Position numbers and translations under genes: made by a program
Notes under the pieces: model-generated
Database searches by the model: none
What the model was told of the DNA's origin: nothing
Seen by the model: the letters and a program-made list of their open reading frames with translations, nothing else
Assembly: GCF_009917525.1 (NCBI RefSeq)
Contig: NZ_QZDU01000006.1
Coordinates: 62,001-126,000, forward strand
Reading direction: 5' to 3'
Origin: Acutalibacter sp. 1XD8-36
GTDB taxonomy: Bacteria; Bacillota; Clostridia; Oscillospirales; Acutalibacteraceae
Length of the DNA: 64,000 bases
Shown: one piece after another, positions 1,831-17,000 of the stretch
Layout of the letters: every line of letters starts with the position of its first letter
Numbering within the stretch: the first letter of the stretch is position 1

Positions 1831-2060
1831 TTCAGCTTGCTTTCTATTTCTGATCAGTAGCTGCTCAGACCGAGTTTGCCGGAATGCACGAAGCACTTGG
1901 CTCCATTGATATGCGCTCCAACATCTTCACTGACCTTAATACTAATAACGAGGTGAACCATCGCCCTGCCGCCCAGCAATGGGCGGTGTGTACTCCGTAA
2001 ATTCAGCGAACATCTACTACCAGCTGCTTTCTTGTGGTGCAACACGAGAGAGCAGTTTTG
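1831..2060. other. Intergenic stretch, no convincing gene
   Basis: A rightward frame of 47 codons runs from about 1851 to 2000 (…EFAGMHEALGSIDMRSNIF…) and ends at a normal stop, but it lacks a start and a ribosome-binding site. It may be the tail of a decayed gene. Nothing else is seen here. Confidence 0.35.
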
Positions 2061-2330
2061 TTATGAGCTGTTTTTCGTGTGAACCCTATGACCCTGCCCA
2101 TTATTCGCGTGTTGCGCGACATATTGGGCAAAAAATATATTGTTTAGCTCTTCTGCACTAAGGTCAAGAAGCGAGGCAATCTTATCAGCTTCCTCAATGG
2201 TAAAGGCACCGCCTCCACCATTGAGGCGCCTGTATAGAGTACTTGGAGTAATCCCTACTGCGGTCGCAACAGAATCTATATTCATCCGGCGCTCTACAAT
2301 TTTGCCTCGCAGCTTGTCTGTATTAACCAT
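2061..2330 (-). CDS. XRE/Cro-like phage regulator, 89 aa
   Basis: The protein contains a helix-turn-helix of the form KIVERRMNIDSVATAVGITPSTLYRRLNGGGGAFTIEEADKIASLLDLS, typical of phage Cro/anti-repressor proteins in Bacillota. ATG at 2330 is chosen over the upstream frame because AGGAGGTGGAAGG directly precedes it. It is divergent from the S24 repressor at 2511 and shares an operator region with it. Its own -35/-10 is TTGACA (2398-2393) and TAATAT (2375-2370). Confidence 0.75.
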   Translation of the reverse strand: MVNTDKLRGKIVERRMNIDSVATAVGITPSTLYRRLNGGGGAFTIEEADKIASLLDLSAEELNNIFFAQYVAQHANNGQGHRVHTKNSS

Positions 2331-2369
2331 CCTTCCACCTCCTTTTTTCGCGTTTTGTGCGACACCCAT

Positions 2370-2398
2370 ATATTACCATACATATCTGGGCTTGTCAA
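2370..2398 (-). promoter_or_regulatory. Promoter of the 2061-2330 regulator
   Basis: On the minus strand TTGACA is followed by a 17-bp spacer and TAATAT. The 10-bp-arm palindrome at 2404-2424 sits immediately upstream of the -35. Confidence 0.65.
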
Positions 2399-2403
2399 CC
2401 CTA

Positions 2404-2424
2404 TTTTCGCAAAATTTGCGAAAA
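2404..2424. promoter_or_regulatory. Operator: perfect 10-bp-arm palindrome
   Basis: TTTTCGCAAA, one central A, then TTTGCGAAAA: a perfect inverted repeat. A second, shorter copy of its core (GCAAATTTGC at 2451-2460) overlaps the -35 of the rightward promoter. A third, degenerate TTTCGC…GTGCGA pair lies at 2347-2362 downstream of the leftward promoter. This three-site layout is that of a phage immunity switch. Confidence 0.7.
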
Positions 2425-2448
2425 TTTTTATTTTTTCTCCCTTTGCTA

Positions 2449-2477
2449 TTGCAAATTTGCGAAACCTGTGTTATTAT
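2449..2477 (+). promoter_or_regulatory. Promoter of the S24 repressor gene, overlapped by an operator
   Basis: TTGCAA, a 17-bp spacer and TATTAT. The palindrome GCAAATTTGC (2451-2460) covers the -35 hexamer, which would allow autorepression. Confidence 0.55.
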
Positions 2478-2510
2478 TGCATTACCTCACAGGAAAGGGA
2501 GTGGAATGCC

Positions 2511-3134
2511 TTGAAGATAGGTGACCGCATAAGGCGGAGAAGGGAAGACCTTCACATTTCAGTAGATGAAGTTGCAAAAAGACTTGGAAAACATCGTGCA
2601 ACTATATACCGCTATGAAAGTGATGAAATACGCACTTTGCCAACAAATGTTCTTGAGCCTCTGGCGGCTGTTCTGGAGACTACCCCTGCCGCTCTTATGG
2701 GCTGGGAGCCTTTCGAGGAGAGCATGCCTGAAAATGTTATCCCCCTCCCTAAAACCTATACCATCCCTCTTGTAGGCACCATAGCCTGCGGGCAGCCCAT
2801 CACAGCTATCCAGGAAGATACCGAGGTGGTGGAGGTGCCGGAGTATATTCACGCTGATTTTGCCCTGCGGTGTAAAGGTGACAGCATGATAAATGCCAGG
2901 ATTTTTGATGGTGATATGGTATATATCCGGCAGCAGGAGCAGGTTGAAAATGGTGAAATCGCCGCTGTCCTTATTGAAGACGAGGCCACGTTAAAGAAAG
3001 TATTCCTTTTTCATGACAGGATTGTTTTAGAGCCTGCAAACCCTCTTTTTGAGCCCCTTATTTATAGGCAGGAAGAGATGAATAGCGTGCGGATATTGGG
3101 TAAGGCAGTGGCTTTTACCAGCGCTATACGATAG
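2511..3134 (+). CDS. LexA/CI-like repressor with S24 self-cleavage peptidase domain
   Basis: An N-terminal helix-turn-helix (RRRREDLHISVDEVAKRLGKHRATIYRYE) is joined to a C-terminal S24 peptidase domain. The catalytic serine is in CKGDSMINARIFDGD and the general-base lysine in EATLKKVF. A likely autocleavage site is the Cys-Gly in VGTIACGQPI, where LexA has Ala-Gly. Proteins of this type hold a prophage silent and are cleaved when RecA is activated by DNA damage. The start is taken as TTG at 2511: the nearby ATG at 2506 hits a stop after two codons, and AAAGGGAG lies about 10 bases before the TTG. It is divergent from the Cro-like gene. Confidence 0.85.
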   Translation: MKIGDRIRRRREDLHISVDEVAKRLGKHRATIYRYESDEIRTLPTNVLEPLAAVLETTPAALMGWEPFEESMPENVIPLPKTYTIPLVGTIACGQPITAIQEDTEVVEVPEYIHADFALRCKGDSMINARIFDGDMVYIRQQEQVENGEIAAVLIEDEATLKKVFLFHDRIVLEPANPLFEPLIYRQEEMNSVRILGKAVAFTSAIR

Positions 3135-3155
3135 AGAATAAATGAGGGCTTTTAT

Positions 3156-3218
3156 ATGAAGTGCACGAGATGTGGCGGGAATATTCCGTCAGGGGAGGGT
3201 ACCGGGGGTTTGCAATAA
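3156..3218 (+). CDS. Tiny zinc-ribbon-like peptide, 20 aa, possibly truncated
   Basis: The frame MKCTRCGGNIPSGEGTGGLQ looks like the first half of a small zinc ribbon; family members normally continue to a second CxxC. Here a stop follows before it. It may be a decayed remnant rather than a functional peptide. The ribosome-binding site is weak. Confidence 0.3.
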   Translation: MKCTRCGGNIPSGEGTGGLQ

Positions 3219-3252
3219 GAGCTATTTTGAGGGAAATAGTGAGAGAAAACGC

Positions 3253-3281
3253 TTGACATAGTGCGGCACATATGCTATAAT
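3253..3281 (+). promoter_or_regulatory. Consensus sigma-A promoter
   Basis: TTGACA, a 17-bp spacer and TATAAT, perfect in both hexamers. The transcript would start near 3288 and carry the 48-aa gene at 3312. Confidence 0.85.
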
Positions 3282-3311
3282 ATAAACATCCAAAGGAAGG
3301 GAGCGCCTACT

Positions 3312-3458
3312 ATGACAGAGAAAGAGCGGCAAGATACAAAGCTGGCTACGCTCTATGAGCTAAGACTACTTTTTACGAATGGAGAAAAGCAAGAATACTC
3401 CATCAAGGAAATCGTAGAACTGCTGGACAAAATTGCAATGGCAAAAGACCAAAAATAG
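3312..3458 (+). CDS. Small hypothetical protein, 48 aa
   Basis: ATG at 3312 follows AAGGAAGGGAG at good spacing and a perfect sigma-A promoter. The protein is charged and helical (EKERQDTKLATLYELRLLF…IKEIVELLDKIAMAK), with no cysteines or membrane segment. Its strong promoter and place beside phage regulators suggest a small early-expressed accessory protein; no family is recognised. Confidence 0.65.
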   Translation: MTEKERQDTKLATLYELRLLFTNGEKQEYSIKEIVELLDKIAMAKDQK

Positions 3459-3518
3459 CCAGGAGGGGGCGGAAAAACCGCCCCTTACTCTGCGTATAGA
3501 ATCACTGGAGTTGATGAA

Positions 3519-3689
3519 ATGTCAGAAAAAAAAGAAACGCCTCAGGAAAGATACCATAAGGCGCATACTGTCAATGTTAATATCCGGCTGATGAAAAATA
3601 CAGAGCAGGACATCATTGAAAAACTCGCCAGCGTACCCAACAAGGCCGGATACATTAAAAGCCTGATTCGGGCTGATATGGGAAAATGA
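3519..3689 (+). CDS. Ribbon-helix-helix-type regulator, 56 aa
   Basis: The sequence has the plan of an Arc/MetJ-like ribbon-helix-helix protein: a short beta strand (HTVNVNIRLMKN) then two helices (TEQDIIEKLASVPNKAGYIKSLIRADM). CTGGAG lies 8 bases before ATG at 3519. Such proteins act as DNA-binding autorepressors or antitoxins in mobile elements. The gene ends just before a strong hairpin at 3694-3746. No toxin partner is obvious next to it. Confidence 0.65.
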   Translation: MSEKKETPQERYHKAHTVNVNIRLMKNTEQDIIEKLASVPNKAGYIKSLIRADMGK

Positions 3690-3746
3690 AAAAGCCGCTT
3701 TCAATGCGAGCGTTCGTTGGCAGTGAAGGCTCGCATTGAAAGTGGC
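3686..3746 (-). terminator. Intrinsic terminator for the abortive-infection gene
   Basis: An 18-bp stem with one G-U pair (arms 3694-3711 and 3729-3746) and a 17-nt loop. On the minus strand it is followed by TTTTT. It lies just beyond the stop of the gene at 3779-4612 and separates the two convergent genes. Confidence 0.8.
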
Positions 3747-3778
3747 AAGCAATGAGACCGGGTACGGCACACCGTCAC

Positions 3779-4612
3779 CTAAGCAATGATTTTTTCCCAG
3801 TCAGCCGGAAAACCTATGCGCTTCAGTTCAATAAGGTCTCTGTATTTTTCTATTGTCGCACACAAGCCGGGGGCAAATGAATTTGTCCAGCCGATACTGT
3901 CAGAATATAGCAGCTTTAATACTACAATATAGTCGAAAAGCCTGTTCCCCAGCTGTATACCAAAGCCTTTAGGCGTTCTGGGGACACCGGGAAGCTTCGC
4001 GTCATATAGTCTGGAATAGTGGGCGCAGAAGTTTCTCAATATCGTCAGGTTTTTCAGCCAGCTTTTCATATGTTTATCAGAGGGCACAGCGAAAGCTTTG
4101 GCAATACCTTTTTGGTCCGCCCTTTTCATATCGGCATAAAAAAGCGAGAGCTCTCCCATGCTGAAAAGTTCGATAATCACCCAAATCGGAAATTTCCCGG
4201 AATACTTTTCGTTGTGGTGCTGTACAAACGGTTGCTGTTTGTTGTGCTCCTTTTCTCTTTCAATATGTTCCAGGAAATTCTCGTGATTATGCCTTTCGGA
4301 AAAGTTTGCCTTGTCCAAATACCCCAGGGCGCCGTATCTGTGCCCGAAAAAGTAGGCGATTTGAGAGCGTAGAGCCAATTCGATTTCCTCGATGACCGGA
4401 AAAAGGAGCTTTCTCATATCGTGGTCAAACTGATATATTCCAACCACCTGAGAAAAATTTGTGCCGCTTATGTACTTGTCCTCTTGAGTTTTGAATGGCA
4501 AAAAATATGCAGTCAGCCTGTAATAGTTCACTCTCTTCAAAAATTCCAGCGCGGACTGCTCGTCGTCAATGATACACCCACGCTTCGCAATTTTCTCTAA
4601 CTGCTGGCACAA
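3779..4612 (-). CDS. Abi_2 family (AbiD/AbiF-like) abortive infection protein
   Basis: The protein matches the Abi_2 family of phage-exclusion proteins: the family opening CIIDDEQSALEFLKRVNYYRLTAYFLPF, a central FGHRYGALGYLD segment, and a C-terminal RNFCAHYSRLY. The last fits the R-x4-6-H active-site motif of HEPN ribonucleases. Such proteins block phage growth at the cost of the infected cell. The frame opens at a TTG (4612) with only a poor ribosome-binding site, and a stop lies four codons further upstream. About ten residues usual at the N terminus of the family appear to be missing. It may be slightly truncated or use an unusual start. A strong terminator follows it. Confidence 0.8.
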   Translation of the reverse strand: MCQQLEKIAKRGCIIDDEQSALEFLKRVNYYRLTAYFLPFKTQEDKYISGTNFSQVVGIYQFDHDMRKLLFPVIEEIELALRSQIAYFFGHRYGALGYLDKANFSERHNHENFLEHIEREKEHNKQQPFVQHHNEKYSGKFPIWVIIELFSMGELSLFYADMKRADQKGIAKAFAVPSDKHMKSWLKNLTILRNFCAHYSRLYDAKLPGVPRTPKGFGIQLGNRLFDYIVVLKLLYSDSIGWTNSFAPGLCATIEKYRDLIELKRIGFPADWEKIIA

Positions 4613-4796
4613 TATATTGTATCACAACCTAACCTTTTGCGTTTTCTAAGACCACACCTCCCCCCAGCGGCGGCGCACTGAGGGGACCATCCTCCAGCCG
4701 GAACGGCGCGCATAATCTGCGTAACCGCTCACAATTCTTATTACTATGGGAGTAGTGGGCTTTTTTATGCCCTCTTCCACGAAAGGATGAATCGAA

Positions 4797-6245
4797 ATGG
4801 AAAACCCCCGGAAGATTTGCGCTGCCTACATCCGGGTCAGCACCCACGACCAGGAGGAGTACAGCCCGGACAGTCAGCTAAGGCTTATACGCGACTATGC
4901 AAAAAGCAACGGCTATGTCCTGCCTGAGGAGTACATATTCAAGGACGACGGCATAAGCGGGCGGACTGCACAGAAGCGCCCGGGCTTCATGTCCATGATA
5001 GCCGCAGCGAAGGAGAAGCCCAGGCCCTTTGAAACAATCCTAGTCTGGAAGTTCAGCCGGTTTGCCCGGAATCAGGAGGAGAGCGTGGTATATAAATCCC
5101 TTCTGAAGAAGGAAAACGGCATTGATGTAATCAGCATATCCGAGCCCTTAATGGAGGGGCCCTTCGGCGGACTTATCGAGCGCATTATCGAGTGGTTTGA
5201 CGCCTTCTACAGTGCAAACCTTGGGGCCGAGGTCCGGCGCGGCATGACCGAGCGGGCCAGCCGCGGGCTCCCGGTGAGCGTTGCGCCGCTGGGATATACA
5301 TACCAGAACAAAGCCTTTGTGGTTATCCCCCGGGAGGCCGACACCGTTCGGGCTATATACCGGGACTTCCTGGGCGGCATCACCATGATAAGCATAGCAA
5401 AGAAGCTGAATATGCAGGGCGTCAGAACAAAGCGCGGCGGACCCTGGGAAAACCGTACCGTGCGGTATATCCTGACAAACCCGGTCTATACCGGCAAGGT
5501 GCGCTGGTGCAGGGACGGCGTGAACGACTACCACGGCTCCGCTCTGCTGGACGGCACAATGATAGTGGAGGGTGAGCACGAGGCCATCATCTCCCAGGAG
5601 GAGTTCGATGCCGTCCAGCGGCGCATTGAGGACTACCAGCGCCGTTATAAGGGCTCCGCCCCAAAGGCTCAGCGCCAGGAGGTCTCACGTATGCTCCAGG
5701 GCATAGTTAAGTGCAGCGCCTGCGGCGGCACCCTTAGCTTTACCGGGGCCGGGATGAACTGCGTCCAGTATGTCCACGGAAAATGCAGGGTGTCCCATTA
5801 TATCACAGTCAAAAAGCTTGAGGAGCTGGTACTCTGCTCCATAGAGGAGCAGCTGGATAGCCTAAAGCTGAATATCATCTCCCGCCAGAGCCCCGACCGG
5901 GAGGCCGAGCGCCAGCGCCTTGAGCAGCTGCTCCGCCGGGAGGAGAGCGTCCTGCAGCGGTACAGGGAATCCTATGCCGCGGGGGTAGACACCCTGGAGG
6001 AGTACCGGGCCAATAAAGCCGCCAGCGAAGCCCGCACCCTGGAGCTGCAGAAGTCCTTGGCCGGATTGCAGAAGCCTGCAAAAGCCGACCCCGCTGCCTT
6101 TGCCAAAAAGCACCGCAACGCAATCCAGGCGCTGAAAAACGCTCAGCTGACGGCCCAGGAGAAAAACGCCCTGCTGCGGGGCTTTGTGGACCATGTGGTG
6201 TTTTTCAAGGACACTAAGCGGGTTGAGGTGGTGTATTATGTGTAG
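4797..6245 (+). CDS. Large serine recombinase (site-specific integrase), 482 aa
   Basis: The N-terminal resolvase domain (about residues 6-150) has the catalytic serine in YIRVSTHDQ (Ser15) and the arginine-rich VWKFSRFARN segment. A recombinase domain follows (about 170-290), then a zinc ribbon (KCSACGG…C…HGKC) and a coiled coil (about 365-440). This is the architecture of phage and ICE integrases. These enzymes join attP and attB without a repeat-rich target and need a directionality factor to excise. Its place in a phage-like region truncating cotJC suggests it integrated that region. The start ATG at 4797 follows GAAAGGA. Confidence 0.9.
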   Translation: MENPRKICAAYIRVSTHDQEEYSPDSQLRLIRDYAKSNGYVLPEEYIFKDDGISGRTAQKRPGFMSMIAAAKEKPRPFETILVWKFSRFARNQEESVVYKSLLKKENGIDVISISEPLMEGPFGGLIERIIEWFDAFYSANLGAEVRRGMTERASRGLPVSVAPLGYTYQNKAFVVIPREADTVRAIYRDFLGGITMISIAKKLNMQGVRTKRGGPWENRTVRYILTNPVYTGKVRWCRDGVNDYHGSALLDGTMIVEGEHEAIISQEEFDAVQRRIEDYQRRYKGSAPKAQRQEVSRMLQGIVKCSACGGTLSFTGAGMNCVQYVHGKCRVSHYITVKKLEELVLCSIEEQLDSLKLNIISRQSPDREAERQRLEQLLRREESVLQRYRESYAAGVDTLEEYRANKAASEARTLELQKSLAGLQKPAKADPAAFAKKHRNAIQALKNAQLTAQEKNALLRGFVDHVVFFKDTKRVEVVYYV

Positions 6246-6303
6246 GCGTGAAATAAAGGAGAGACAGGCGTTTACCCATCTCCCCTTTTGCTTCTTCTAT
6301 CCG

Positions 6304-6636
6304 CTACACGCAGCTTTTCTCTGTCTCTTTAAGCCCTGAAAGTCTCCCTGCATTAAACAGAAGTGCGTAGAATCGTACTAACCGCCTCCACTCGCGTGCC
6401 CTCGGAGTCCACATATTGTGGTGCTTTGCAAAGTTTACAAGGAAGTCGTATAAATCCGTTCCCGGCCCAGGAGGCTCGGTGTCGCTGGCCTCCTGAACAG
6501 AAACGTGAACAACCTGGGAGCTGATAGGGAACCGCTCGTTTTTGTCAATCCAGATTTGCATGGCCATATCCAAATCGCGTGGGTCGCAGTTGGTGATGCC
6601 GTGGTAGTCGATGTTGACAGCAAAATAATTTAGCAT
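6304..6636 (-). CDS. Hypothetical accessory protein, 110 aa
   Basis: A leftward gene starting MLNYFAVNIDYHGITNCDPRDLDMA; it overlaps the upstream gene by 7 bp, so the two are translationally coupled. The protein is soluble with a tryptophan-rich C-terminal half (HNMWTPRAREWRRLVRFYALL). I do not recognise a family. It converges on the serine recombinase gene. Confidence 0.55.
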   Translation of the reverse strand: MLNYFAVNIDYHGITNCDPRDLDMAMQIWIDKNERFPISSQVVHVSVQEASDTEPPGPGTDLYDFLVNFAKHHNMWTPRAREWRRLVRFYALLFNAGRLSGLKETEKSCV

Positions 6637-6839
6637 TTCTTCACCTCCGCTTTGGCAGCACGGTAGCCCTTGGCCTGACCATAATTAAAAGCAAGTTTAA
6701 TGCTGTCATAAGGCTTCTCACGAGCCATATTAATTAGGTCCCACATCTCGGCTACTTGCAGGCTATACCTGATGTTTGAAAAGCCGGTTTTCTTGGTGTA
6801 CTTCTTCATCTGTTCAATTTTCGCAACTTGGCTACTCAT
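6630..6839 (-). CDS. Hypothetical small accessory protein, 69 aa
   Basis: Starts MSSQVAKIEQMKKYTKKTGFSNIRYSLQVAEMWDLINMAREKPYDSIKLAFNYGQAKGY. A GGAGGAAT ribosome-binding site precedes ATG at 6839. Strongly helical and basic; small proteins with this NYGQAKGYRAAKAE ending recur in Clostridia mobile DNA, with no established role. It is followed by the overlapping 110-aa gene. Confidence 0.55.
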   Translation of the reverse strand: MSSQVAKIEQMKKYTKKTGFSNIRYSLQVAEMWDLINMAREKPYDSIKLAFNYGQAKGYRAAKAEVKKC

Positions 6840-6915
6840 TTCTTATATTCCTCCTTGATTTCCACCAAAGAGGGTGCTATAATAGATTTGGCACCATTTG
6901 GTGTGTGGTTTTTAA

Positions 6916-6952
6916 GGCGTTGCCCGGTGATTGGTAGTCGGAGGGCAATGCC
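6916..6952 (-). terminator. Hairpin directly after the ribbon-helix-helix gene
   Basis: Arms 6916-6925 and 6943-6952 (10 bp with one wobble) begin at the base next to the stop codon of the gene at 6953-7126. No long U-run follows on the minus strand, so it may attenuate rather than fully stop transcription into 6839. Confidence 0.4.
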
Positions 6953-7126
6953 TTATTTCTTTATGTCTGGCTTTAACCGTTTAATCCCTCGGCGTATCGC
7001 TTCCATCTGGCTGATTTTTTCTTGTTGAGAATACTGCTCTAATATGGCCTTGCTTTCCTCATCAACACGAACAGTCAGTTTATACGGTTTAGGGTTATCG
7101 GTAGGCCTCCCCATTTTGGGGGTCAT
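6953..7126 (-). CDS. Ribbon-helix-helix protein (MGRPTDNPK type), 57 aa
   Basis: The protein reads MTPKMGRPTDNPKPYKLTVRVDEESKAILEQY…, a known small regulator type with a basic N-terminal arm, one beta strand (YKLTVRVD) and two helices ending in the conserved MEAIRRGI segment. These are Arc-like DNA-binding proteins common on plasmids and ICEs. ATG at 7126 follows GAGGTGAT. Inverted TTTTGAC/GTCAAAA arms flank its promoter, which suggests autoregulation. Confidence 0.75.
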   Translation of the reverse strand: MTPKMGRPTDNPKPYKLTVRVDEESKAILEQYSQQEKISQMEAIRRGIKRLKPDIKK

Positions 7127-7139
7127 CTCATCACCTCAC

Positions 7140-7182
7140 TTTTGACAGTCATAATTATAAACTATTGGCAGTCAAAAGTCAA
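7140..7182 (-). promoter_or_regulatory. Promoter with flanking operator arms
   Basis: Minus strand TTGACT (7182-7177), 17-bp spacer, TATAAT (7159-7154). TTTTGAC at 7140-7146 and GTCAAAA at 7171-7177 form an inverted repeat around the -10, and GACAGTCA/GGCAGTCA form a direct repeat. Likely site for the encoded ribbon-helix-helix protein. Confidence 0.65.
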
Positions 7183-7221
7183 CCCTTTTTCCAGAAATCA
7201 TTTGAAAAGATTAAAAAAGGA

Positions 7222-7250
7222 TTGACAACACGTGCGATACGTGTTATAAT
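7222..7250 (+). promoter_or_regulatory. hicAB promoter with an operator in the spacer
   Basis: TTGACA (7222-7227), a 17-bp spacer and TATAAT (7245-7250). The spacer contains the inverted repeat AACACGT-GCGAT-ACGTGTT (7227-7245), a natural site for autorepression by the DNA-binding domain of HicB. Confidence 0.75.
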
Positions 7251-7272
7251 ATTCTTGTAGGGAGGGGGAAAT

Positions 7273-7449
7273 ATGAAAGATAAAGACCTGCTAAAGATTT
7301 TGAAGAAAGATGGTTGGGAAGTCGTTAGAATACACGGTAGCCATCATGTTCTTCAAAAAGGGGACAATATCACGGTAGTTCCTATACACGGCAAGGATGT
7401 CCCCACTGGCCTGCTGAATAAAATTTTGAAGGATGCGGGGCTAAAATAA
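7273..7449 (+). CDS. hicA: HicA mRNA interferase toxin
   Basis: A 58-residue double-stranded-RNA-binding-fold toxin: MKDKDLLKILKKDGWEVVR, then the active histidine in HGSHHVLQKGD, then TVVPIHGKDVPTGLLNKILKDAGL. HicA cleaves mRNA and tmRNA without ribosomes and is neutralised by HicB. It is preceded by GGAGGGGG and a consensus promoter with an operator, and is followed after 27 bp by hicB, the normal gene order. All conserved residues appear present, so it is probably active. Confidence 0.93.
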   Translation: MKDKDLLKILKKDGWEVVRIHGSHHVLQKGDNITVVPIHGKDVPTGLLNKILKDAGLK

Positions 7450-7476
7450 GCCCCCTCCTTTTAGGAGGTATGTCTC

Positions 7477-7848
7477 ATGATGTTCGTCTATCCCGCAATT
7501 TTCCACCAGGAGGAGGACGCTTATTGGGTGGAATTTCCAGACCTGCCCGGCTGCCAGAGCTTTGGCGGTACCCTGAACGAGACAATGGAAGGGGCACAAG
7601 AGGCATTGGCGGCCTATGCGCTCACCTTGTTAGAGCAAGGTAAAAACCTTGCTGCCCCTTCTGATATATCTGCCATAGACCCAGCAGGCGGGTTCACCTC
7701 TTTGGTAGCCTGCTCCGTTGACCCGTACAAAGACACCCGTGCTGTAAAGAAGACCCTGACCATCCCCGCGTGGCTAAATGACCGAGCTGTGGCGATGGGA
7801 GTAAATTTCTCACAGGTTTTACAAGACGCATTGCTCTCAAAAATATAG
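7477..7848 (+). CDS. hicB: HicB antitoxin
   Basis: The N-terminal half (about residues 1-60) is the degenerate RNase H-like HicB fold (FHQEEDAYWVEFPDLPGCQSFGGTLNETMEGAQEAL). The C-terminal part (KKTLTIPAWLNDRAVAMGVNFSQVLQDAL) is a ribbon-helix-helix DNA-binding domain. It should bind HicA and, with it, the palindrome in the promoter. AGGAGGT precedes the double ATG at 7477/7480. The gene ends about 50 bp before the truncated catalase, at the edge of the element. Confidence 0.92.
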   Translation: MMFVYPAIFHQEEDAYWVEFPDLPGCQSFGGTLNETMEGAQEALAAYALTLLEQGKNLAAPSDISAIDPAGGFTSLVACSVDPYKDTRAVKKTLTIPAWLNDRAVAMGVNFSQVLQDALLSKI

Positions 7849-7898
7849 GTATCTATGCTGAAATTAAACTTCTTTTCCTTCATTATCACATCTTGACA

Positions 7899-8340
7899 TA
7901 TCTTGGGCCCCACGGCGAAATAGGCGCGTCACTGCGATACCTGAGCCAGAGGTACGCCATGCCCTACCCGGAGCTTAGCGCTATATTGACGGATATAGGT
8001 ACCGAAGAACTAGCCCACCTTGAAATGGTCGGCACTATCGTCTACCAGCTGACTCGCTGCCTTACCCCCGAGCAGATTGAGGAGGCGGGTTTTTCCGACT
8101 ATTTCGTGGACCACACCACAGGCGTATATCCCCAGGCTGCCTCCGGCGTGCCGTTCTCCGCGGCAACCTTTGCCGTCACCGGCGACCCCATAGCCGATTT
8201 GAACGAGGACCTTGCAGCAGAGCAGAAGGCGCGGCTCAGCTACGACAACATCCTGCGCTTTGCCGACGACCCGGATGTGGCCGAGCCCATCAAGTTCCTG
8301 CGGGAGCGGGAAGTCGTGCACTATCAGCGCTTCGGCGAAG
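7899..8340 (+). pseudogene. cotJC: Manganese catalase / CotJC, middle fragment (5' and 3' ends displaced)
   Basis: From about LGPHGEIGASLRYLSQRYAMP the frame follows the CotJC/manganese catalase family through GTEELAHLEM (metal ligands), AAEQKARLSYDN, and REREVVHYQRFGE. The usual first 35-40 residues are absent: the frame upstream runs into the end of the hicB region. At the glutamate of QRFGE the homology stops exactly at a 10-bp repeat, and the real C terminus (GLRILTDRLDSKNFYAFNP…) lies 12.8 kb away at 21,159-21,230. As it stands the fragment would read on into element DNA for about 60 meaningless residues. CotJC belongs to the spore coat in Bacillus; it disproportionates peroxide using a di-manganese centre. 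Confidence 0.85.
8331..8340. repeat. attL core, TTCGGCGAAG
   Basis: Ten-base direct repeat at the left edge of the 12.8-kb element. Identical to 21,150-21,159. Host catalase sequence lies to its left, element sequence to its right. Confidence 0.88.
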
Positions 8341-8366
8341 CAAACCATACTGATTTAAGCAGATTT

Positions 8367-8408
8367 TATCCCCTGTGGGCGGCTCACAGGGGATATTTGT
8401 CTCCTTTT
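8367..8408 (+). terminator. Intrinsic terminator just inside the left end
   Basis: A perfect 11-bp stem (8,367-8,377 with 8,385-8,395) and a 7-nt loop, followed by a T-rich tract ending TTTTTT. It would stop transcripts entering from the interrupted catalase gene 27 bp after the junction. Confidence 0.75.
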
Positions 8409-8420
8409 TTATTCGGATAT

Positions 8421-8864
8421 TCAGCCGCAGACCTGTCCCTCTTCATAGCACACCCGGATATAATCCCGAGGCTGGTAATAAAAATCACTATTGTAGTTGG
8501 AGATCGCAGTATTTATCCATGAGGTGTATACCTCCACCAAACGGTCAATGATGTGCTCCTCGTCATCGCCGGAAATGTCCTCAATCAACCGCTCGTAGAC
8601 CTCGCCAATCGTCCAGTAGTCGGGTACGTCATACCGACAGGATGCTACGTTATCGAAAGCGCCTTTCGGAATATTCAAGTTCGTAATGAAGTCATCCGCT
8701 ATTTTTTCAATCGGCTCACAGTGAAAAACGTCTGCGTAACGGTAGATACGCCTGATGGTTTTCTCTCCCATAACGCGAACCAGCTCGGAGCGATTCAATT
8801 TTTGCTGCCTACCGATATATTCAATCAGGCTACAAGTATAGAATAATGCGCTGTTATTCTTCAT
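8421..8864 (-). CDS. DUF3791-like protein, probable antitoxin partner of DUF3990
   Basis: The N-terminal region (SALFYTCSLIEYIGRQQKLNRSELVRVMGEKTIRRIYRYADVFHCEPIEKIADD) resembles the DUF3791 family, usually encoded next to DUF3990 ADP-ribosyltransferase-like proteins. About 70 further residues are acidic and helical (ERLIEDISGDDEEHIIDRLVEVY). The first frame overlaps the upstream DUF3990 gene by up to 23 bp, depending on whether GTG at 8876 or ATG at 8864 is used, so the two are translationally coupled. Role inferred from this pairing: neutralising the toxin. Confidence 0.65.
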   Translation of the reverse strand: MKNNSALFYTCSLIEYIGRQQKLNRSELVRVMGEKTIRRIYRYADVFHCEPIEKIADDFITNLNIPKGAFDNVASCRYDVPDYWTIGEVYERLIEDISGDDEEHIIDRLVEVYTSWINTAISNYNSDFYYQPRDYIRVCYEEGQVCG

Positions 8865-9324
8865 CCCGGACTTCACTTCCCTTCACAAACGACAGCGTAG
8901 TTAAGGCTCTGTCCGTATGGAAACTGATCTGATGGGTTGGCCTTTTGAACTTTGCAAGCTCCCAAAAGGCTTCTCTGCTGATTTTTCCGTCCGCAAAGTT
9001 CTGGACATAGTTGAAAATAGTGTCATTAGCCATAGGGCCTTCTACGATGTCATAGTCATGAGGATGTCCCAAACGGCAGGACACGATGAAATCCAGCCAT
9101 TCCTCCGTCATTTCCGTGAACCGTTTTACTCTCAAACTATCGTCAGGCATATAGAGATACTCACTTAAATAGCCGACGCCATCAAACCGAACAGCCCACC
9201 GGGTAGCTTGTTCTCGAATTAATGTGCAGTAAAAGCCAAAGTAAAAGTCTTTATTGTACTTCTGAAGCCGTATCTCTGGCGATTTGACCAATACTTTGCT
9301 GCCATGGTAGAGAATCATGCCCAT
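8854..9324 (-). CDS. DUF3990 family protein, ADP-ribosyltransferase-like toxin candidate
   Basis: The N terminus ILYHGSKVLVKSPEIRLQKYNKDFYFGFYCTLIREQATRWAVR is diagnostic of DUF3990, whose fold belongs to the ADP-ribosyltransferase superfamily. The YHGS and DFYFGFYCT segments correspond to the NAD-binding H-Y type motifs, and QATRWA is the usual following helix. The enzyme's target is unknown. GGAGGAAT precedes ATG at 9324, and a good promoter lies at 9351-9379. With the overlapping DUF3791-like gene it forms a likely toxin-antitoxin unit guarding the element. Confidence 0.75.
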   Translation of the reverse strand: MGMILYHGSKVLVKSPEIRLQKYNKDFYFGFYCTLIREQATRWAVRFDGVGYLSEYLYMPDDSLRVKRFTEMTEEWLDFIVSCRLGHPHDYDIVEGPMANDTIFNYVQNFADGKISREAFWELAKFKRPTHQISFHTDRALTTLSFVKGSEVRDEE

Positions 9325-9350
9325 TCCTCCTTGTTAGATTCTTTAAGCCT

Positions 9351-9379
9351 ATTATACTTCCTCAATAGCTGAAAATCAA
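9351..9379 (-). promoter_or_regulatory. Promoter of the DUF3990 operon
   Basis: Minus strand TTGATT, 17-bp spacer, TATAAT; start predicted about 20 bp before the GGAGGAAT ribosome-binding site. Confidence 0.7.
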
Positions 9380-9398
9380 CTCAACAGCCGACTATCTG

Positions 9399-9435
9399 CA
9401 AAAAATAACCGCCAGAGCATCAAAGCCCTGACGGT
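9399..9435 (-). terminator. Intrinsic terminator of the recombinase gene
   Basis: Arms 9,408-9,418 and 9,425-9,435 (11 bp with two wobbles) followed on the minus strand by TATTTTTT, directly after the recombinase stop. Confidence 0.75.
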
Positions 9436-9438
9436 CTG

Positions 9439-10968
9439 CTATATGTTCCAAAGCACCTTCGTGCTGCCATCCTCGCTGATAACAATTTTATGTATCATAA
9501 TCATAGCGACAGCCTTTTTGCGCTTGTAGTCGGCAGTCCTCCATGACTTCGCCAGATTGACAACAACATTGGTTTCATCATCACGGCTTTTCAAGTCCTC
9601 TATCCGCTCATACAGAGCCAGCCGGTCCCTCTTGAGCTGGGTAGCCTTTTGATTTGCCAGCGCCAGAAGGTCATCGTTGAATCCACCCGCCAGCATAGTG
9701 TCCAAAAGCTGTTTCTCCGACTTCTCAATAGCCTTGATTTTCAGCTTCAGCTCGTTGACCTCTGCCGTGTCTCCCTTTCGGGTGGTGCGGTTCATCTCCT
9801 TCAGATCTGCCAGCTTCGCGGAGATGCACTCATAAACCATATTCTCCAAATCCTCGGCGTAGATCGTCACCTTCGGCCCTGTACAGGTTTTCTTGTGGGA
9901 TCTTCCGGTGCAGTTGAAATACCGCCGTATCTCGCCACTCTTGTTGATCTTCCCCTTAATGGTGGTCATGGTGTGGCCGCACTTCTCACAGACCACCTTC
10001 CCTGCCAGCCAGCTGGTAGGGTTGCTGACGCTGTTCCCAATCTGACGGTTCTTCTCCAGCTTCCGCTGGCATCTGAGCCAGATGTCAGAATCAACAATAC
10101 CGGGGTGGGTTAAGAGCACCAGCTTCATATCCGACCAATCTGGGCTGCTGGGGTCATGCTTAGTGTGACCGTAGAGCTGCGCCCCATTCTCCCCGGTGAA
10201 CATGGACACGTCTGTGACCATCTGAACGCCGTGGCGGTCATAGTAGTCGTATACATCGGAATCGGCCTTGACGTAGATAGGGTTCTTTAGCAATGTGGAC
10301 AGCTTCGCCGTCGTCCAACTGCTGCCATTCAGGGGCTGCTTCCCCTCGGCTACCAGAATATCCAGGAGCCGCCGCAGGGACACGCTCTCCTGAGCGTAGA
10401 CCTCAAAGATATAGCGTACCTCCTCTACCTCAGCGGGGATTGGATTCAGCTTTTTAGTCTTGACGTTATGGATGACTGTCGGAACCAGCTCGAAGCCATA
10501 GGGCTGGCGGCCGCCCATATAGAACCCCATTTCACTGCGGTGGGCATATGCCTGGGTGACACGGTTGATAATGGATGTCCGCTCAAACTCGGCGAACACC
10601 ATCAGGAGCTTGACGATCATTTCACCATAAGGCGAGGATGTGTCAAAAGACTCCTGAGAGGACACGAACTCAACCTTGTGCTCCTTGAACTCCTGCAAAA
10701 TGTTCACAAAATCCGATAAAGAACGGCTGATACGGTCCAGCTTGTAGACAATGACCTTTTTGACCTTCCCCTGCCGCACCAGCTTCATCATCTTCTGGAA
10801 GCCGTCCCGATTGACATTGCCGCCGGAGAAGCCGTTGTCCACAAAGGTTATGATCTTTTCGTCCCGCTCATCGGGCTTAATAACAGACCTGCAATACTCA
10901 AGCTGGGTTTCGCAGCTAATGCTGTTCTCCCGCTCCACCGACTTACGGGCATACAGAATGATCGCCAT
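9439..10968 (-). CDS. Large serine recombinase of the 12.8-kb element, 509 aa
   Basis: Resolvase domain about residues 2-145 with the catalytic serine in LYARKSVE (Ser10) and the conserved VYKLDRISRS. The recombinase domain follows (about 165-290), then a zinc beta ribbon (CEKCGHTM…FNCTG) and a C-terminal coiled coil ending in KKAVAMIMIHKIVI. The start is ATG at 10,968, where GGGGGTGTGTCAA precedes it, rather than the GTG three codons upstream. It lies 1.1 kb inside the left end of the element and is the natural candidate for its integrase, acting at the TTCGGCGAAG core. A 51-aa gene precedes it. Confidence 0.92.
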   Translation of the reverse strand: MAIILYARKSVERENSISCETQLEYCRSVIKPDERDEKIITFVDNGFSGGNVNRDGFQKMMKLVRQGKVKKVIVYKLDRISRSLSDFVNILQEFKEHKVEFVSSQESFDTSSPYGEMIVKLLMVFAEFERTSIINRVTQAYAHRSEMGFYMGGRQPYGFELVPTVIHNVKTKKLNPIPAEVEEVRYIFEVYAQESVSLRRLLDILVAEGKQPLNGSSWTTAKLSTLLKNPIYVKADSDVYDYYDRHGVQMVTDVSMFTGENGAQLYGHTKHDPSSPDWSDMKLVLLTHPGIVDSDIWLRCQRKLEKNRQIGNSVSNPTSWLAGKVVCEKCGHTMTTIKGKINKSGEIRRYFNCTGRSHKKTCTGPKVTIYAEDLENMVYECISAKLADLKEMNRTTRKGDTAEVNELKLKIKAIEKSEKQLLDTMLAGGFNDDLLALANQKATQLKRDRLALYERIEDLKSRDDETNVVVNLAKSWRTADYKRKKAVAMIMIHKIVISEDGSTKVLWNI

Positions 10969-11009
10969 TTGACACACCCCCTTTCCTCATGGTAAAATGT
11001 ATGTACTCC

Positions 11010-11165
11010 CTATGCGGGAATACGCTTTTCCGTTCTTGTCAAAGCCAGAAACAGCTCTTCTTTAAGCCGCTCCCGATTGGCTGGGTCCTCTTCATGGACA
11101 GTAAAATGCTCTACACGGTGTTTCCGGTCTTTGATGTCCGTGTACTCATCTTTTAGATTAGCCAT
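11010..11165 (-). CDS. Small charged protein, 51 aa, upstream of the recombinase
   Basis: ATG at 11,165 follows AGGAGGTATTGCA, a strong ribosome-binding site; the longer upstream frame has none. The product (MANLKDEYTDIKDRKHRVEHFTVHEED… ending LALTRTEKRIPA) is highly charged and has no known family. It ends 41 bp before the recombinase start and is on the same strand. Small charged proteins next to serine integrases can be recombination directionality factors; here that is only a possibility. Confidence 0.6.
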   Translation of the reverse strand: MANLKDEYTDIKDRKHRVEHFTVHEEDPANRERLKEELFLALTRTEKRIPA

Positions 11166-11256
11166 TGCAATACCTCCTAGATGGCCCCACACAGGGCCAA
11201 TGTCGATCTCATCCATTACGATAATATGCGTGAAGCCGCGGCATATTTCGTGGATG

Positions 11257-11302
11257 AATAGTAAAAACCAAGAGCACATCCGCGCCCTTGGTTTTTACTA
11301 TT
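11257..11302. terminator. Bidirectional hairpin after hsdS
   Basis: Perfect 16-bp inverted repeat (11,257-11,272 and 11,287-11,302) with a 14-nt loop; the arms contain AAAAA/TTTTT so it can act as a terminator on either strand. It lies 15 bp beyond the hsdS stop. Confidence 0.75.
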
Positions 11303-11316
11303 ATATTCGAATCACG

Positions 11317-12678
11317 CTATAATATTTCCTTCACCATCTCCCCCGCCCATTCCTCCTCCGGGTTATTCGTTCCCAATTCCCCACGGAACGCGCGGGCTAA
11401 AATCGCCTTTTTCATGTTGTCGATCTGGGAGAGGACAGCTTCGGCGGCTTCTTTGGCTTGCTGCTCTTTTTTCAGAATCTTATCCAAGGCAACGACAACT
11501 TCTTCTTGTTCTTCAACAGATGGAATGGGAAGCTCTATCTTTTGCAGTTTTTTTGCATTTACACCCGGCTGTGCAATGCCTGCACTAAACTCTGTAATTT
11601 GCTGCCAATAACTTGGTGATTGCATAAAGTAATATAAATATCTTGCCATTAGCCCTGCCTGTTTCATCGTCAGCCGAATCAAGTATGAGGCAAAAACCGC
11701 TTTTACGTCATCCGCAATCAGATAGCTTTTCCCTGTAGTTGCGCCTGTGCGTGCTATCACGATGTCGCCCTGCTTCATCGAGTATTTCTCAAAATCGTCC
11801 TTTGAAATCGCACAATATGGAACCTTGTCCCAATTAACAACGCCATCTTGTATATCGGTGATACGCAAAAACTTTGGGCCAACTGGTTCTTGTGTGGCGC
11901 TCTCCGTATATCCATACTGCGAATTCGTATATTTGCCAAATGTGGATGTACGCCATTTGTCTGCGCCACGCTTGTTTCTCCACCGCTCCGTCAGCTCCCC
12001 CGTAAATGCCTTATGAAGAATTGCAGACTTCCGCAGCTCAAAACCGTCCACCACTGCTTGGGCCTTTTCCTTCGCCTCATCCAGCTTGGCGAACAGGCTT
12101 TCAAGGCGGGAGACAATACGGTGCTGTTCTGAAAAGGGGGGGAGCGGAAACGGAATTGCTTCCAAATCACTCTTTCGTATTGCTGGAACAGTTGTAGCAT
12201 TCGTGTATGTGTATAAGTCAAGCCCAAGGGTCCAATAAAACGCATAGTGCCAAAAACATTCCTTAGCTTGAAAGGCCATAAGATTATTATCAATGCAACA
12301 CGGTACAGCATTGATGCTCCTGCGGTTTAAGCGAATAGCCTCGCCAATCTTTGCAAAAATAATTGATTGACTTGGTATCAATGCAGCTTTTAATTTTGCT
12401 CTAATTTCTTCGTTAATAGTATTGCTATTATCATATAAAATCCCATTTACATCGGAATATTTCAAACTTCCAACTTTGTAAAAAGGAATTTGATATTCAG
12501 CAAAACCTTGATATTCATTTTTGAAAGTACTTCCGGCAGTAAACTCGCCGATATTGCCCCAATAAATCCAGCACCAATTCTCAGGAATCGGATACGGCTG
12601 CTCCTCTGCTGGCACAAGGGCTTGTTGCAGCTTTTCCTCTGGCGACAGTTCTTTTGCCGCCTTTTTCCCTCTTGCCAT
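11317..12678 (-). CDS. hsdS: Type I restriction-modification specificity subunit HsdS
   Basis: Two target-recognition domains, each followed by a conserved helical spacer: the first runs to about residue 200 and ends in PFPLPPFSEQHRIVSRLESLFAKLD, the second to about 410 and ends in PIPSVEEQEEVVVALDKIL. HsdS fixes the bipartite DNA target of the HsdM methylase and the HsdR nuclease. The 453-residue length is normal. The first base of ATG at 12,678 is shared with the hsdM stop (TGATG), so translation is coupled. No spare hsdS fragments or inverted repeats for phase variation are present. Confidence 0.95.
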   Translation of the reverse strand: MARGKKAAKELSPEEKLQQALVPAEEQPYPIPENWCWIYWGNIGEFTAGSTFKNEYQGFAEYQIPFYKVGSLKYSDVNGILYDNSNTINEEIRAKLKAALIPSQSIIFAKIGEAIRLNRRSINAVPCCIDNNLMAFQAKECFWHYAFYWTLGLDLYTYTNATTVPAIRKSDLEAIPFPLPPFSEQHRIVSRLESLFAKLDEAKEKAQAVVDGFELRKSAILHKAFTGELTERWRNKRGADKWRTSTFGKYTNSQYGYTESATQEPVGPKFLRITDIQDGVVNWDKVPYCAISKDDFEKYSMKQGDIVIARTGATTGKSYLIADDVKAVFASYLIRLTMKQAGLMARYLYYFMQSPSYWQQITEFSAGIAQPGVNAKKLQKIELPIPSVEEQEEVVVALDKILKKEQQAKEAAEAVLSQIDNMKKAILARAFRGELGTNNPEEEWAGEMVKEIL

Positions 12679-14096
12679 CAGTCCACCTCCGACAGGGCCT
12701 TCAGCTCATTCACCACGCTCTGCAAGAGGTCCACCGCTTCTTCCAGCTGCGCAATGGCTTCCTCGCCGCTCTCAATCGGGTCGGGCAAATCGTCATAGTC
12801 AACCATGGAATCATCCCGAATCAGCCCCAAATCCAGGCTGTTGCCCTTCTGGGCGATCTGCTCCCGGGTGAACACGCTCCACCGCTCATCCTGCACAGCC
12901 CGACGGTCTGCGGCCTCAAACGCCGCCTCAAAGTCCGCGAAATGCTCCGTTTTCAGCGGATTTGTCTTGCCGAAAGAGGGCATATTGGTACGTAGGTCAT
13001 AGAACCAGACCTCCTGGGTATTGCCCTTGTCCGTCCTTCCCCGGGTGAAAAACAGCACGTTGGTCTTGACCCCCTGGGCGTAGAAAATGCCGGTGGGCAG
13101 ACGCAGAACCGTGTGCAGATTGCACTTGTCCATCAGGTCAATTCGGATTTTCTCACCCTCGCCGTCGGCAAAGAGGACGTTATCCGGCAGCACCACAGCG
13201 GCGCGGGCCTTTCCGTCCGCGTTCAGACTGCGGTAAATATGCTGCAAAAAGTTCAGCTGCTTGTTGCTGGTGGTGTAGGTGAAGTCGTCGCGGGTGGCGC
13301 GTTCGCCGCCCTTCTTCGTTCCAAAGGGAGGATTGGTGAGGACCACGTCATAGCCCCGCATACTTTTACCGAGATTGGACAGGGTATCGCCCAGCGTGAT
13401 GGTCCCCTCCATGTTGTGCAGCATGGCGTTCATCAGAGCCAGACGGTGGGTATCATGTACCAGCTCCATGCCAGTAAAGGCCTCCGTGCGCTCAAAGGCG
13501 GCGGTGTCTGCGTCCAGGTCAAAGAAGTCATCGGTCTGGTCCGCAACATACCGATGGGCGGCGATCATAAAGCCGAACGTGCCGCAAGCGGGGTCGTTGC
13601 AGCGTTCCTTCGGCTGAGGCTTCACCAGACGGGTCATGACATCAATCAGCACCCGGGGCGTGAAATACTGTCCCGCTCCCGACTTCTTCTCGTTGGCGTT
13701 CTTCTCCAAAAGGCCCTCGTACAGATTGCCAAGCCCCTCTTCCCGGGCAGAAAACCAGTCCAGCCCGTCAATGGTGGTGATAATCTTTTCCAGGTTCTTC
13801 GGTTCGTCAATGTTGGTGGCCGCGCCCTGATAGATTTCCCGCACACGGCCTGTACAGCTCTCGCCCAGGTGGTTCAGCAGCTCCTTATAGAATTTCTTCA
13901 ATTCAATGCCGCTTTTGGCGGTGAGGCTGTCCCAGTGATAAGCCTCCGGGATCTGGCTCTCTGCCCCCGTCTCCTTCGCCATTTTCAAAAACAGGATATA
14001 GGTCAGCTCCGTCACATACTGGTGATAGGTGATGCCGTCGTCACGGAGAACATTACAGAGGTTCCAGAGCTTGGAGACAATTTCCTGTGTCGTCAT
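12678..14096 (-). CDS. hsdM: Type I restriction-modification DNA methyltransferase subunit HsdM
   Basis: An N6-adenine methyltransferase with the SAM-binding motif DPACGTFGF (residues 168-176) and the catalytic NPPF (255-258, in VVLTNPPFGTKKGG). The N-terminal region carries the usual HsdM helical bundle and a GLGNLYEGLLEK…GQYFTPR segment. With two HsdM and one HsdS it methylates the host sites. ATG at 14,096 overlaps the hsdR stop by 4 bp (ATGA). Confidence 0.96.
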   Translation of the reverse strand: MTTQEIVSKLWNLCNVLRDDGITYHQYVTELTYILFLKMAKETGAESQIPEAYHWDSLTAKSGIELKKFYKELLNHLGESCTGRVREIYQGAATNIDEPKNLEKIITTIDGLDWFSAREEGLGNLYEGLLEKNANEKKSGAGQYFTPRVLIDVMTRLVKPQPKERCNDPACGTFGFMIAAHRYVADQTDDFFDLDADTAAFERTEAFTGMELVHDTHRLALMNAMLHNMEGTITLGDTLSNLGKSMRGYDVVLTNPPFGTKKGGERATRDDFTYTTSNKQLNFLQHIYRSLNADGKARAAVVLPDNVLFADGEGEKIRIDLMDKCNLHTVLRLPTGIFYAQGVKTNVLFFTRGRTDKGNTQEVWFYDLRTNMPSFGKTNPLKTEHFADFEAAFEAADRRAVQDERWSVFTREQIAQKGNSLDLGLIRDDSMVDYDDLPDPIESGEEAIAQLEEAVDLLQSVVNELKALSEVD

Positions 14097-17000
14097 GCGA
14101 TTTTCCCTCCATCATCGTACAGATACTCGTTCAGCTCCAGGATAATGCTTTCCAGTTTATTTCCAAACACTTTGTTGATCTTCGCAAAGCCGCCTTGTGC
14201 CTTGAAGCGCCCATCCTCGTCAAATACGGTCACATTCAGCACAGATTCTTCCATCAGGTATTTTTCCATTCTGGTAATCCAGTTAAGCTCCTGCTTGGAG
14301 AAGGTATGCGCCTTTTTCAGCTTGTCCACCGCGCGTCTGATTCTGGCCTCATGGGAAATCAGGGTGGAGCCGATAGCGTACCGGCGAATCAGGCTGATAA
14401 TATCGGCGGCGATTTCCTCGTTGGTCATCTGGGAAACAGCCGTATTCAGCTGCTGGGTGGTAAAGCCCTCCCTGTCCAGCGTCAGGCGTAGGGAGCGCAG
14501 CCCCTCGCGGGTCAGCTCCTTCGGCCTTGTGCAGACGATGTTCAAGGCGGCGATCTCATTCAGATTGCTCTTGACATAGTTTGCGAATGCGTCCAGATAA
14601 TCCTCGGGCTTGCTGCCGCTGCCGTAGCCTCTGGTATGCTCCAAAAGCTCATCCTCGTGGTCGGAGATCACCACAGAGCGGCGGCCATCCGGCTTGAACT
14701 GCGCCAGCATTTTGAATAGCTCCGTATTGGCAAGCAGACGGTTTTTGGCGTCCTCCGGCCTGCGCTGCTGAATGTCGTCAATGAACTGGGTGGGGTCTTG
14801 TCCCCCGGTCATGCTGATAAAATGTTCCATGGTTTCAGCATCCATGCGCCGTTTTTTCCGTTGCAGCTTTGCAAGGATTTGATCGATCTGATTTTGCACC
14901 TGGCGTTCATCCTCCAGAACCTCCAGGCCATCCAAAAGCTGCTCAAATGTTGCGCTGGGGTTGGCAACGACGGGCTTCATGGTGTTGACCGCTTCCAGAG
15001 AATCATAAACGCCAACGGGGTCGTAGATTTCAAAATGGGTCTTGTGGATATCAGGACAGCGGCGGGTGGCACGGCCCATCATCTGCTCAAACAGGATACG
15101 GGATTTCACACGGCGCATAAATACCAATGTTGTGATTGCGGGAACATCGATTCCCGTCGTCAGCAAATCCACTGTTACGACAACGCTGGGAAAGCGTTCG
15201 TTCTTGAAGCGCTTGATGGCGTCCTTTACCTTTTTCTTGTTGCCGCCGCCTACAGAGCCGGTGATTTTCATAATGGCGTCATTGTCCACGCCCTTTTCCG
15301 TATAAATCTCCTTCAGAATTTTTACGATTAAATCAGCATGGTCATCATTGACGGCAAAAATCAAGGTTTTCCCCTGAACATCCGGACTATCCGGGTCAAT
15401 ATCACGGGCGATTTCAGCCAAAACCGTCCGATTAAACGGCTCTGTTATGACCTGGCAGTTGAAGGCATCCACATCAAAATCCAATTCATCTTCCAACAGC
15501 TCAGAATTGGTGACCTCACCCGTCACAGGGTCATACCGTACAACGGTATCGCCCCTCTTGTAATGAATGCCCTCCGCGCTTAATTTGGTGGATATCCTAT
15601 GGGGAGCGTCATGGTCAACCAGATACCCCTCGATCACCGCCTCCCGGTATGTATACTTGAATACAGGCTGTCCGAAAATCTTGGTGGTCTGTAGGGCTGG
15701 CGTTGCGGTCAGCGCAATTTTCACAGCGTCAAAATACTCTACAACGCAGCGGTATTTGCTCTGATAATCGATCTGATCCCGGTAAAGGACTTCATCCTCG
15801 CCCATTTCCTTATCCAGGATATAGCCTCGGTGCGCTTCGTCGATGATAACCAAATCATAGTCAGAAACAGCGGGCATGGTATCCTCGTCATTGTACAGGA
15901 TTCGCTTGACCATGCTCTGAACCGTGGCAATCTGGATACGAGTCTCACGGTCTATATCCTTATCCTCTAAACCCTTGATATTGTATATATCATCAAGGGT
16001 CATTAAGTCCTCCAGCTTGACCTCCTGGAATACGTCAGAGGCCTGTTCACCTAAAGCGGTTCTGTCCACCAGGAAAAGGATTCTGCGGAACCGTCCCGTT
16101 TTCAGGAAACGGTAGATCATACCCAGGATGGTTCTGGTCTTGCCCGTTCCTGTCGCCATGGCAAGCAGGACATTACGTTGGCCGTTGATAATTGCTTCCT
16201 CGGCGGCCTTTATCGCTCTGACCTGATATTCATAGAGACTCAGGCCGTCCTTGTCACGCAGCAGGTCATAGGGCATCTCCTGCAAGTCCTGATTCCTTGC
16301 GGAAATATCCTTGTCAAGCAGCTCTATAATCCCCTCCGGGCTCATCCAGCCCCGCAGAGCTTTTGGCGCATTATCGGGCTGCCTCAAATCCAAAAACCAT
16401 ATACCGCTTTTGGTGTCGTACTGCTCTAAATACGGCCTTCCGTTGGTGGCAAAGGTGAGCGGCACTTTATAGCTTCCCCATGTTCCAATCTGATAGGCTT
16501 TATCAGCACTGCGGATATTTCGGGAGTAATCTTTGCACTGATAGTCGATGACAGATGGAATATCCTTATGGCTCGCCTTCGCTTCGACCGTTGCGACCAA
16601 CTGCATACCAACGAATAGAGCATAATCCACATAGCCCCGATTGCCAACCGTAGAATCAGTAGGCCATTCAGCAATAGCGATATTGCGCCCCTTGGCAGGA
16701 CGTGTTCCCTTGGAATAGCGCAGCTGCTCTGTATCGGCCTCCCAGCCAACCTTGCGCAGCTGCTCGTCGATTAGATAGCGTGTTTCCGCCTCGGATTTGA
16801 CTCGCTGGCTTGCGGCTTTGGCGGACTGCTTCTTTCGGACTTCCTTTTCCATGGTGGGAGCCGCCGCCGCTGCCCTTTCCGCCTCTTCGATCAGCTGTGT
16901 CTCCTGAGCCTGTTCGCTCTGCTGATTGACACTGACGGGTTCCAGTGTTTCAGATGGCATGACAAACGGTTGATTTTGATAATTCCAGTCCCCATAGGTC

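Follow-up and report, generated by a model that had tools for sequence, protein, structure and literature searches.

The cotJC gene of Acutalibacter sp. 1XD8-36 is divided into three pieces because two elements with large serine recombinases (LSRs) occupy conserved sites A and D within it. The original prediction, made on the window (64,000 bases of one 176-kb contig, here C62), was that two unrelated LSR elements in a single cotJC mark an integration hotspot. This holds but falls short of the full picture: at least 93 of the genomes sampled have a split cotJC, the breaks recur at five sites, and each site has an LSR family of its own. The wider pattern constitutes a strong, testable finding, and developmental excision is its best explanation. 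We consider it quite probable that the elements are skin-like, that is, that their excision in the mother cell rebuilds a gene for a spore-coat manganese-catalase-like protein.

A coat gene in three pieces

In the window, the catalase frame begins abruptly at position 7905 (GGGCCCCACGGCGAA; GGGCCCCACGGCGAAATAGGC; GPHGEIGASL), past hicB and a stretch of 56 bases. The prediction that cotJC is truncated here at its 5' end, at the edge of a second serine-recombinase region, was thus borne out. So was the assignment of the preceding DNA to hicB, which follows hicA, and its 3' flank; this flank (7849-7904) is the half of the attachment site that belongs to element 1, and the recombinase proposed for the same region does contain Resolvase and Recombinase domains. 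The frame had been placed at LGPHGEIGASL, of which everything from GPHG onward stands and the leading Leu falls outside CotJC; the N-terminal part is indeed missing, and at 31 codons it is slightly shorter than the 35-40 residues expected. Extension to the left, as had been suggested, located the 5' piece with the GGGCC core at the left end of element 1, 23 kb away (C62:46617-46711; L003:6617-6711). It comprises 31 codons (MFVYEKRLQHPVRIKNPNPKLAKIIMSQYGG) and terminates in CAGTATGGCGGGCC. A PF05067 search of the whole genome gave no second complete copy of cotJC.

Through PF05067, a motif and a CotJC profile, the three pieces were placed on one contig and one strand, in the correct order. PF05067 matched cotJC twice in the genome (HMM positions 1-33 at C62:46617-46715 and 29-191 at C62:69899-70345, window 7899-8345), and the short 3' piece was caught by the motif and the CotJC profile (C62:83132-83227). 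Immediately 5' of the first piece lies cotJA (PF11007), with a small ORF between the two that is named cotJB by position only. The identity of the protein as CotJC follows from the PF05067 match, the adjoining cotJA, and the conservation of E35, E65, H68, E136 and H169, which we take from Mn catalases to be manganese ligands. SpoIVA is also encoded by this genome. Removal of both elements on paper yields a frame of 198 codons with no stops.

The 5' and middle pieces share GGGCC (5 bp), and the middle and 3' pieces share TTCGGCGAAG (10 bp). When the ends of each element are re-closed, inverted arms surround the core (TTATCACAT...ATGTGATAT for element 1 and CTTAAATC...GATTTAAG for element 2), as is expected of serine-integrase attP sites. 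Both elements thus lie inside a sporulation gene whose parts are colinear, share a core and rejoin in frame, with a recombinase near the end of the element. The recombinases are of about 500 residues, with an N-terminal resolvase and a recombinase domain (PF00239, PF07508), and match LSR structures; the closest solved relative of the site-A family is SprA (YokA).

Table 1. Features of the split cotJC locus. Positions refer to the window unless prefixed with C62.
Feature	Position	Strand	Basis or remark
Element 1, apparently defective prophage at cotJC site A	C62:46707-69904, 23,198 bp		GGGCC join, phage genes
Element 1, right part	1..7904		left 15.3 kb outside window
Abi_2-like abortive-infection gene, element 1	3779..4612	-	PF07751, E 6e-56
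Large serine recombinase, element 1, site-A family	4797..6245	+	PF00239 + PF07508; A clade 100/100; profile search
hicA toxin gene, cargo, right end of element 1	7273..7449	+	PF07927
hicB antitoxin gene, cargo, element 1	7477..7848	+	PF15919
Element half of attR, site A	7883..7904	+	arm TTATCACAT, inverted as ATGTGATAT in other half-site
Site-A core GGGCC	7905..7909	+	common to end of 5' piece
cotJC middle piece (host DNA flanked by both elements)	7905..8340	+	PF05067
Element 2, restriction-modification island with LSR, cotJC site D	8331..21149, 12,819 bp		Pfam, joins
Site-D core TTCGGCGAAG (10 bp)	8331..8340	+	second copy 21150-21159
Large serine recombinase, element 2, site-D family	9439..10977	-	PF00239 + PF07508 + PF13408; D clade 100/100
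Small ORF (MANLKDEYTDIKDR...), candidate directionality factor, just upstream of LSR	11010..11165	-	longer frame 11010-11279
Sigma-E-like promoter candidate ATA-N15-CATATTAT preceding small ORF	11221..11246	-	single consensus match, within longer frame
Type I restriction-modification hsdS, hsdM, hsdR, element 2 cargo	11317..17359	-	Pfam
Two AAA_14/DUF4143 ATPase genes, element 2 cargo	17678..20251	+	Pfam
cotJC 3' piece (FGEGLRILTDRLDSKNFYAFNPSFDK)	21150..21231	+	motif, CotJC profile, join

Element 1 also contains repressor-like genes and, beyond the window, genes for baseplate, tape-measure, holin, endolysin, helicase and Sak4-like proteins. It looks like a defective prophage: the proteins searched include tail, lysis and replication functions, and none could be recognised as belonging to the head or to packaging. 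Outside element 1, immediately before cotJA, lie genes for the large subunit of a phage terminase and for a CI-like repressor (L003:3209-6087; C62:43209-46087); they may be what is left of another prophage, or a module that was displaced. No phage genes were recognised among the proteins of element 2 that were searched. Likely phage-defence cargo is found in both elements, namely the Abi-like gene and the type I restriction-modification genes. In an IMG/VR contig from another sample, the site-D LSR region is 95% identical in DNA to that of the window and the adjoining cotJC 79%, which suggests that the recombinase module was transferred between hosts.

Recurrent break sites and their recombinases

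With the CotJC protein of this strain as a query, 49 of 60 relatives gave a match, many in two pieces, and a profile of intact CotJC (A1) matched in 325 of 394 genomes of the order. Coordinates were taken for 154 of these 325, picked for a low or intermediate best score, and 148 were tabulated; both flanks of at least one break were found in 93 of the tabulated genomes, and both flanks of two or more breaks in 22. Fragment pairs on the same contig are in order and orientation in 51 of 52 cases, with elements of 2.8 to 91 kb. The breaks recur in four zones, A (~codon 31), B (62-65), C (~136) and D (~176), and at five sites when divided by LSR family (A, B1, B2, C and D), zone B being composed of B1 and B2. 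Their cores fall on codons of invariant residues that are putative manganese ligands or neighbours of these. Metal-site codons vary least and would therefore offer LSRs a stable target, in a gene used in a dying cell.

The joins have no stop in 52 of 57 cases among relatives. Stops are retained in G065, G181 and G328, and one in the B join of G267 arises from omission of a micro-exon. Because the join search admitted only in-frame cuts, an in-frame result is to some extent built in; independent evidence comes from the shared cores, which recur. Between the split cotJC of the window strain and its relatives, dN/dS is 0.01-0.10, like that of intact pairs, with dS so close to saturation that constraint after insertion carries no timing; dN/dS was accordingly dropped as a means of dating the insertions.

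For comparison of the recombinases, 80 stretches were fetched, and an LSR was found at one end of almost every element. A tree of 64 LSRs gave five groups, A (12), B1 (20), B2 (5), C (14 at junctions) and D (10), each supported at 100/100. LSR clade and cotJC site correspond with no exceptions among junction LSRs, and changes of site label across the tree are minimal except that B is two groups. The stem of each family is a long branch, of 1.4-3.4 changes per column. At this length the families look old and appear to have reached cotJC independently of one another; relations between them are unsure because some long branches meet.

The association was followed across all 394 genomes with a profile of the A-family LSRs (E <= 1e-100), which returned 33 matches, one per genome. 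Of these, 32 lie beside a cotJC fragment: 30 within 2 kb of a tabulated fragment, mostly at less than 60 bases, together with those of G069 and G190. The exception is that of G159, on a contig without a cotJC fragment, and two genomes (G237 and G393) show evidence of a break at site A and no A-family LSR above the threshold. In a check on sequences from outside the profile set, five contigs (L053, L059, L073, L098 and L104) proved to have an A-family LSR immediately preceding a cotJC that is broken at site A.

The most divided gene is that of G267 (C1:205516-289000), in which six colinear pieces span 83 kb and all five elements are present, measuring 7.3 (A), 15.4 (B1), 33.7 (B2), 12.4 (C) and 14.0 kb (D). 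Each junction is adjoined by one LSR of its own family. The third piece is a micro-exon at 228456 that codes for GTEE and amounts to 9-13 bases, depending on how the core is counted; the six pieces join in frame into a CotJC without stops. In G071, three elements occupy cotJC on one contig.

Splits of cotJC are also present outside the order. Four of the class loci checked carry an LSR of family A or B next to cotJC; in G695, the LSR belongs to neither family. The cotJC of G695 (L205:9964-11565) looks split, and the nearby LSR is a poor fit to all five families and may represent a sixth. In Flavonifractor sp. An82 (L081:11387-13195), ~1 kb separates a cotJC match from an LSR with a relationship to the site-C family (311 bits). 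The 91-kb site-C element of G405 has three further LSR genes in a row (L158:1-4428) besides the junction LSR. Two loci are irregular: in the single-contig genome G022 (C1:2862849-2954868), the first of three pieces lies on the opposite strand, as a large inversion ending within the divided gene would produce, and in G020 (C50:40877-81345), the 5' piece is on the wrong side of the remaining pieces. Rearrangements or assembly errors probably account for both.

Control of excision and competing explanations

In the proposed mechanism, the LSR would be inactive in excision until a mother-cell promoter of the sigma-E type drives synthesis of a small directionality factor. The elements would then leave in the dying mother cell, where cotJC would be rebuilt, and the forespore would retain the interrupted gene. 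An element excised only from a dying cell, and kept in the copy passed on, would be both cheap and inherited.

Candidates for such a factor exist in three families. Just upstream of the LSR in C, D and B1 there is often a small ORF (~45-75 codons), and profiles built from four or five of these ORFs each found new members only upstream of same-family LSRs. No conserved small ORF was found upstream of the LSRs of family A, to which element 1 belongs. The pattern ATA-N15-18-CATANNNT occurs upstream of 12 of 29 small ORFs versus 10 of 506 other ORFs at the same loci (p about 2e-11), having been narrowed after a looser version gave 13 hits versus the 1.7 expected from shuffles. Sporulation promoters directly before the LSRs were also considered and rejected, as the sigma-E and sigma-K hits (2 and 2, versus 1.0 and 1.3 expected) show no excess; the signal was confined to the DNA before the small ORFs. 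In the skin element of C. difficile, the small directionality factor CD1234 is under sigma-E and SpoIIID, and the recombinase is made throughout (PMC5025042). In view of this precedent and of the sigma-E-like promoters, the small ORFs are proposed to be directionality factors. The candidate in element 2 is weak: its similarity to the site-D small-ORF family is slight and was seen by eye, and the site-D profile missed it. The promoter candidate before it is likewise weak on its own.

The most serious alternative, which we nevertheless regard as unlikely, is that cotJC is a plain hotspot, combining conserved metal-site codons with dispensability, in which insertion inactivates the gene and the elements leave as ordinary mobile DNA, with no programmed excision. 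CotJC is reported to be dispensable in the species studied, and its interruption might therefore be tolerated without excision. Such a reading fits the placement of the cores within the most conserved codons and the phage origin of element 1 and some others. It also fits the fact that no excised or joined DNA was seen. Two IMG/VR contigs were compared as possible sources of excised circles: one matched the window exactly wherever the two were aligned, the other has cotJC beside the same LSR, and neither gave an excised form. However, the pieces of cotJC are nearly always free of stops, even where there are six in one gene, and intact pieces would bring an inactivated gene no gain in strains with several elements. 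Moreover, sigma-E-like promoters precede the small ORF and LSR, and three of the five LSR families have a family-specific small ORF.

It is very doubtful that the middle piece is expressed unjoined, as a truncated protein that has taken on another role. Although this piece is open for more than 200 codons, running into both elements, the putative metal-ligand residues are distributed over the pieces, the element-encoded ends vary between genomes, and one piece in G267 is the micro-exon of 9-13 bases. Least credible of all is a fusion of unrelated contigs within cotJC during assembly or binning, which separate-contig fragments in several draft genomes and the odd order or orientation in G020 and G022 might suggest, but which is already refuted for most cases by genomes assembled as one contig or nearly complete (G370, G405, G365 and G071), in which the pieces are colinear on the same contig, by exact cores and family-specific LSRs that recur in many independent assemblies, and by the window arrangement itself, all on one contig.

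Excision in the mother cell thus remains the preferred explanation. In its general form, which is reasonably likely, this explanation has multiple independent excisions restoring cotJC as a routine part of development in Clostridia, five unrelated LSR families having converged on five metal-site-codon sites of a 0.6-kb gene; in some strains with all five elements and the micro-exon, the mother cell would have to remove every one.

Relation to known elements and significance

The closest parallel is skin in sigK of C. difficile (LSR CD1231, factor CD1234), an LSR element that likewise splits a mother-cell gene and whose excision rebuilds it (PMC5025042). The target of skin is a sigma factor, its small directionality factor is sigma-E-driven, and its excision has been shown, whereas the cotJC elements lie in a coat catalase gene, involve several sites and elements, have candidate factors only and are known from sequence. 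SP-beta in spsM of Bacillus subtilis (SprA/SprB; PMC4191935) resembles element 1 as a phage-type element in a spore-envelope gene, but it is a complete active phage, a single element at one site, and element 1 looks defective. Like element 2, gin in gerE of Bacillus cereus ATCC10987 is a non-phage island with restriction genes and a serine recombinase (PMC5595907); unlike element 2, it has three recombinases and a single site in a regulator gene. The prophage-like yin in yabG of Clostridium botulinum also sits in a spore-coat-related gene (PMC10747680), although it is confined to one strain and the cotJC splits recur across the order and beyond. The phi027 prophage of C. difficile R20291 is described as adjacent to a CotJC-like gene (PMC11222575, PMC12122855), whereas the cotJC elements split the gene.

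Outside spore-formers, heterocyst genes of cyanobacteria can each hold several interruption elements, which leave in a terminally differentiated cell, as proposed here for cotJC (PMC4874684). At most four per gene are reported, compared with five in the cotJC of G267; the four in nifD of Rivularia are the most per gene in the literature searched (PMC4874684). The interrupted sporulation genes listed to date are sigK, spsM, spoVFB, gerE and yabG (PMC10747680). In the literature searched, where subscription journals were thinly covered, no description was found of an interrupted cotJC or of more than one element in any sporulation gene.

Sporulation genes with inserted elements were previously known as isolated cases; here five LSR lineages target one coat gene. 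In many genomes, annotation would record cotJC as absent or incomplete. The loci supply new LSRs with assigned attachment sites and, for a single gene, a large natural set in which LSR, core and candidate directionality factor are variously combined. Both flanks of at least one break are present in 93 of the 325 profile-matching genomes of the order, so split cotJC would be widespread among gut spore-formers. The split gene also poses a testable question, namely why mother-cell genes, which an element can leave at no cost to itself, accumulate mobile DNA.
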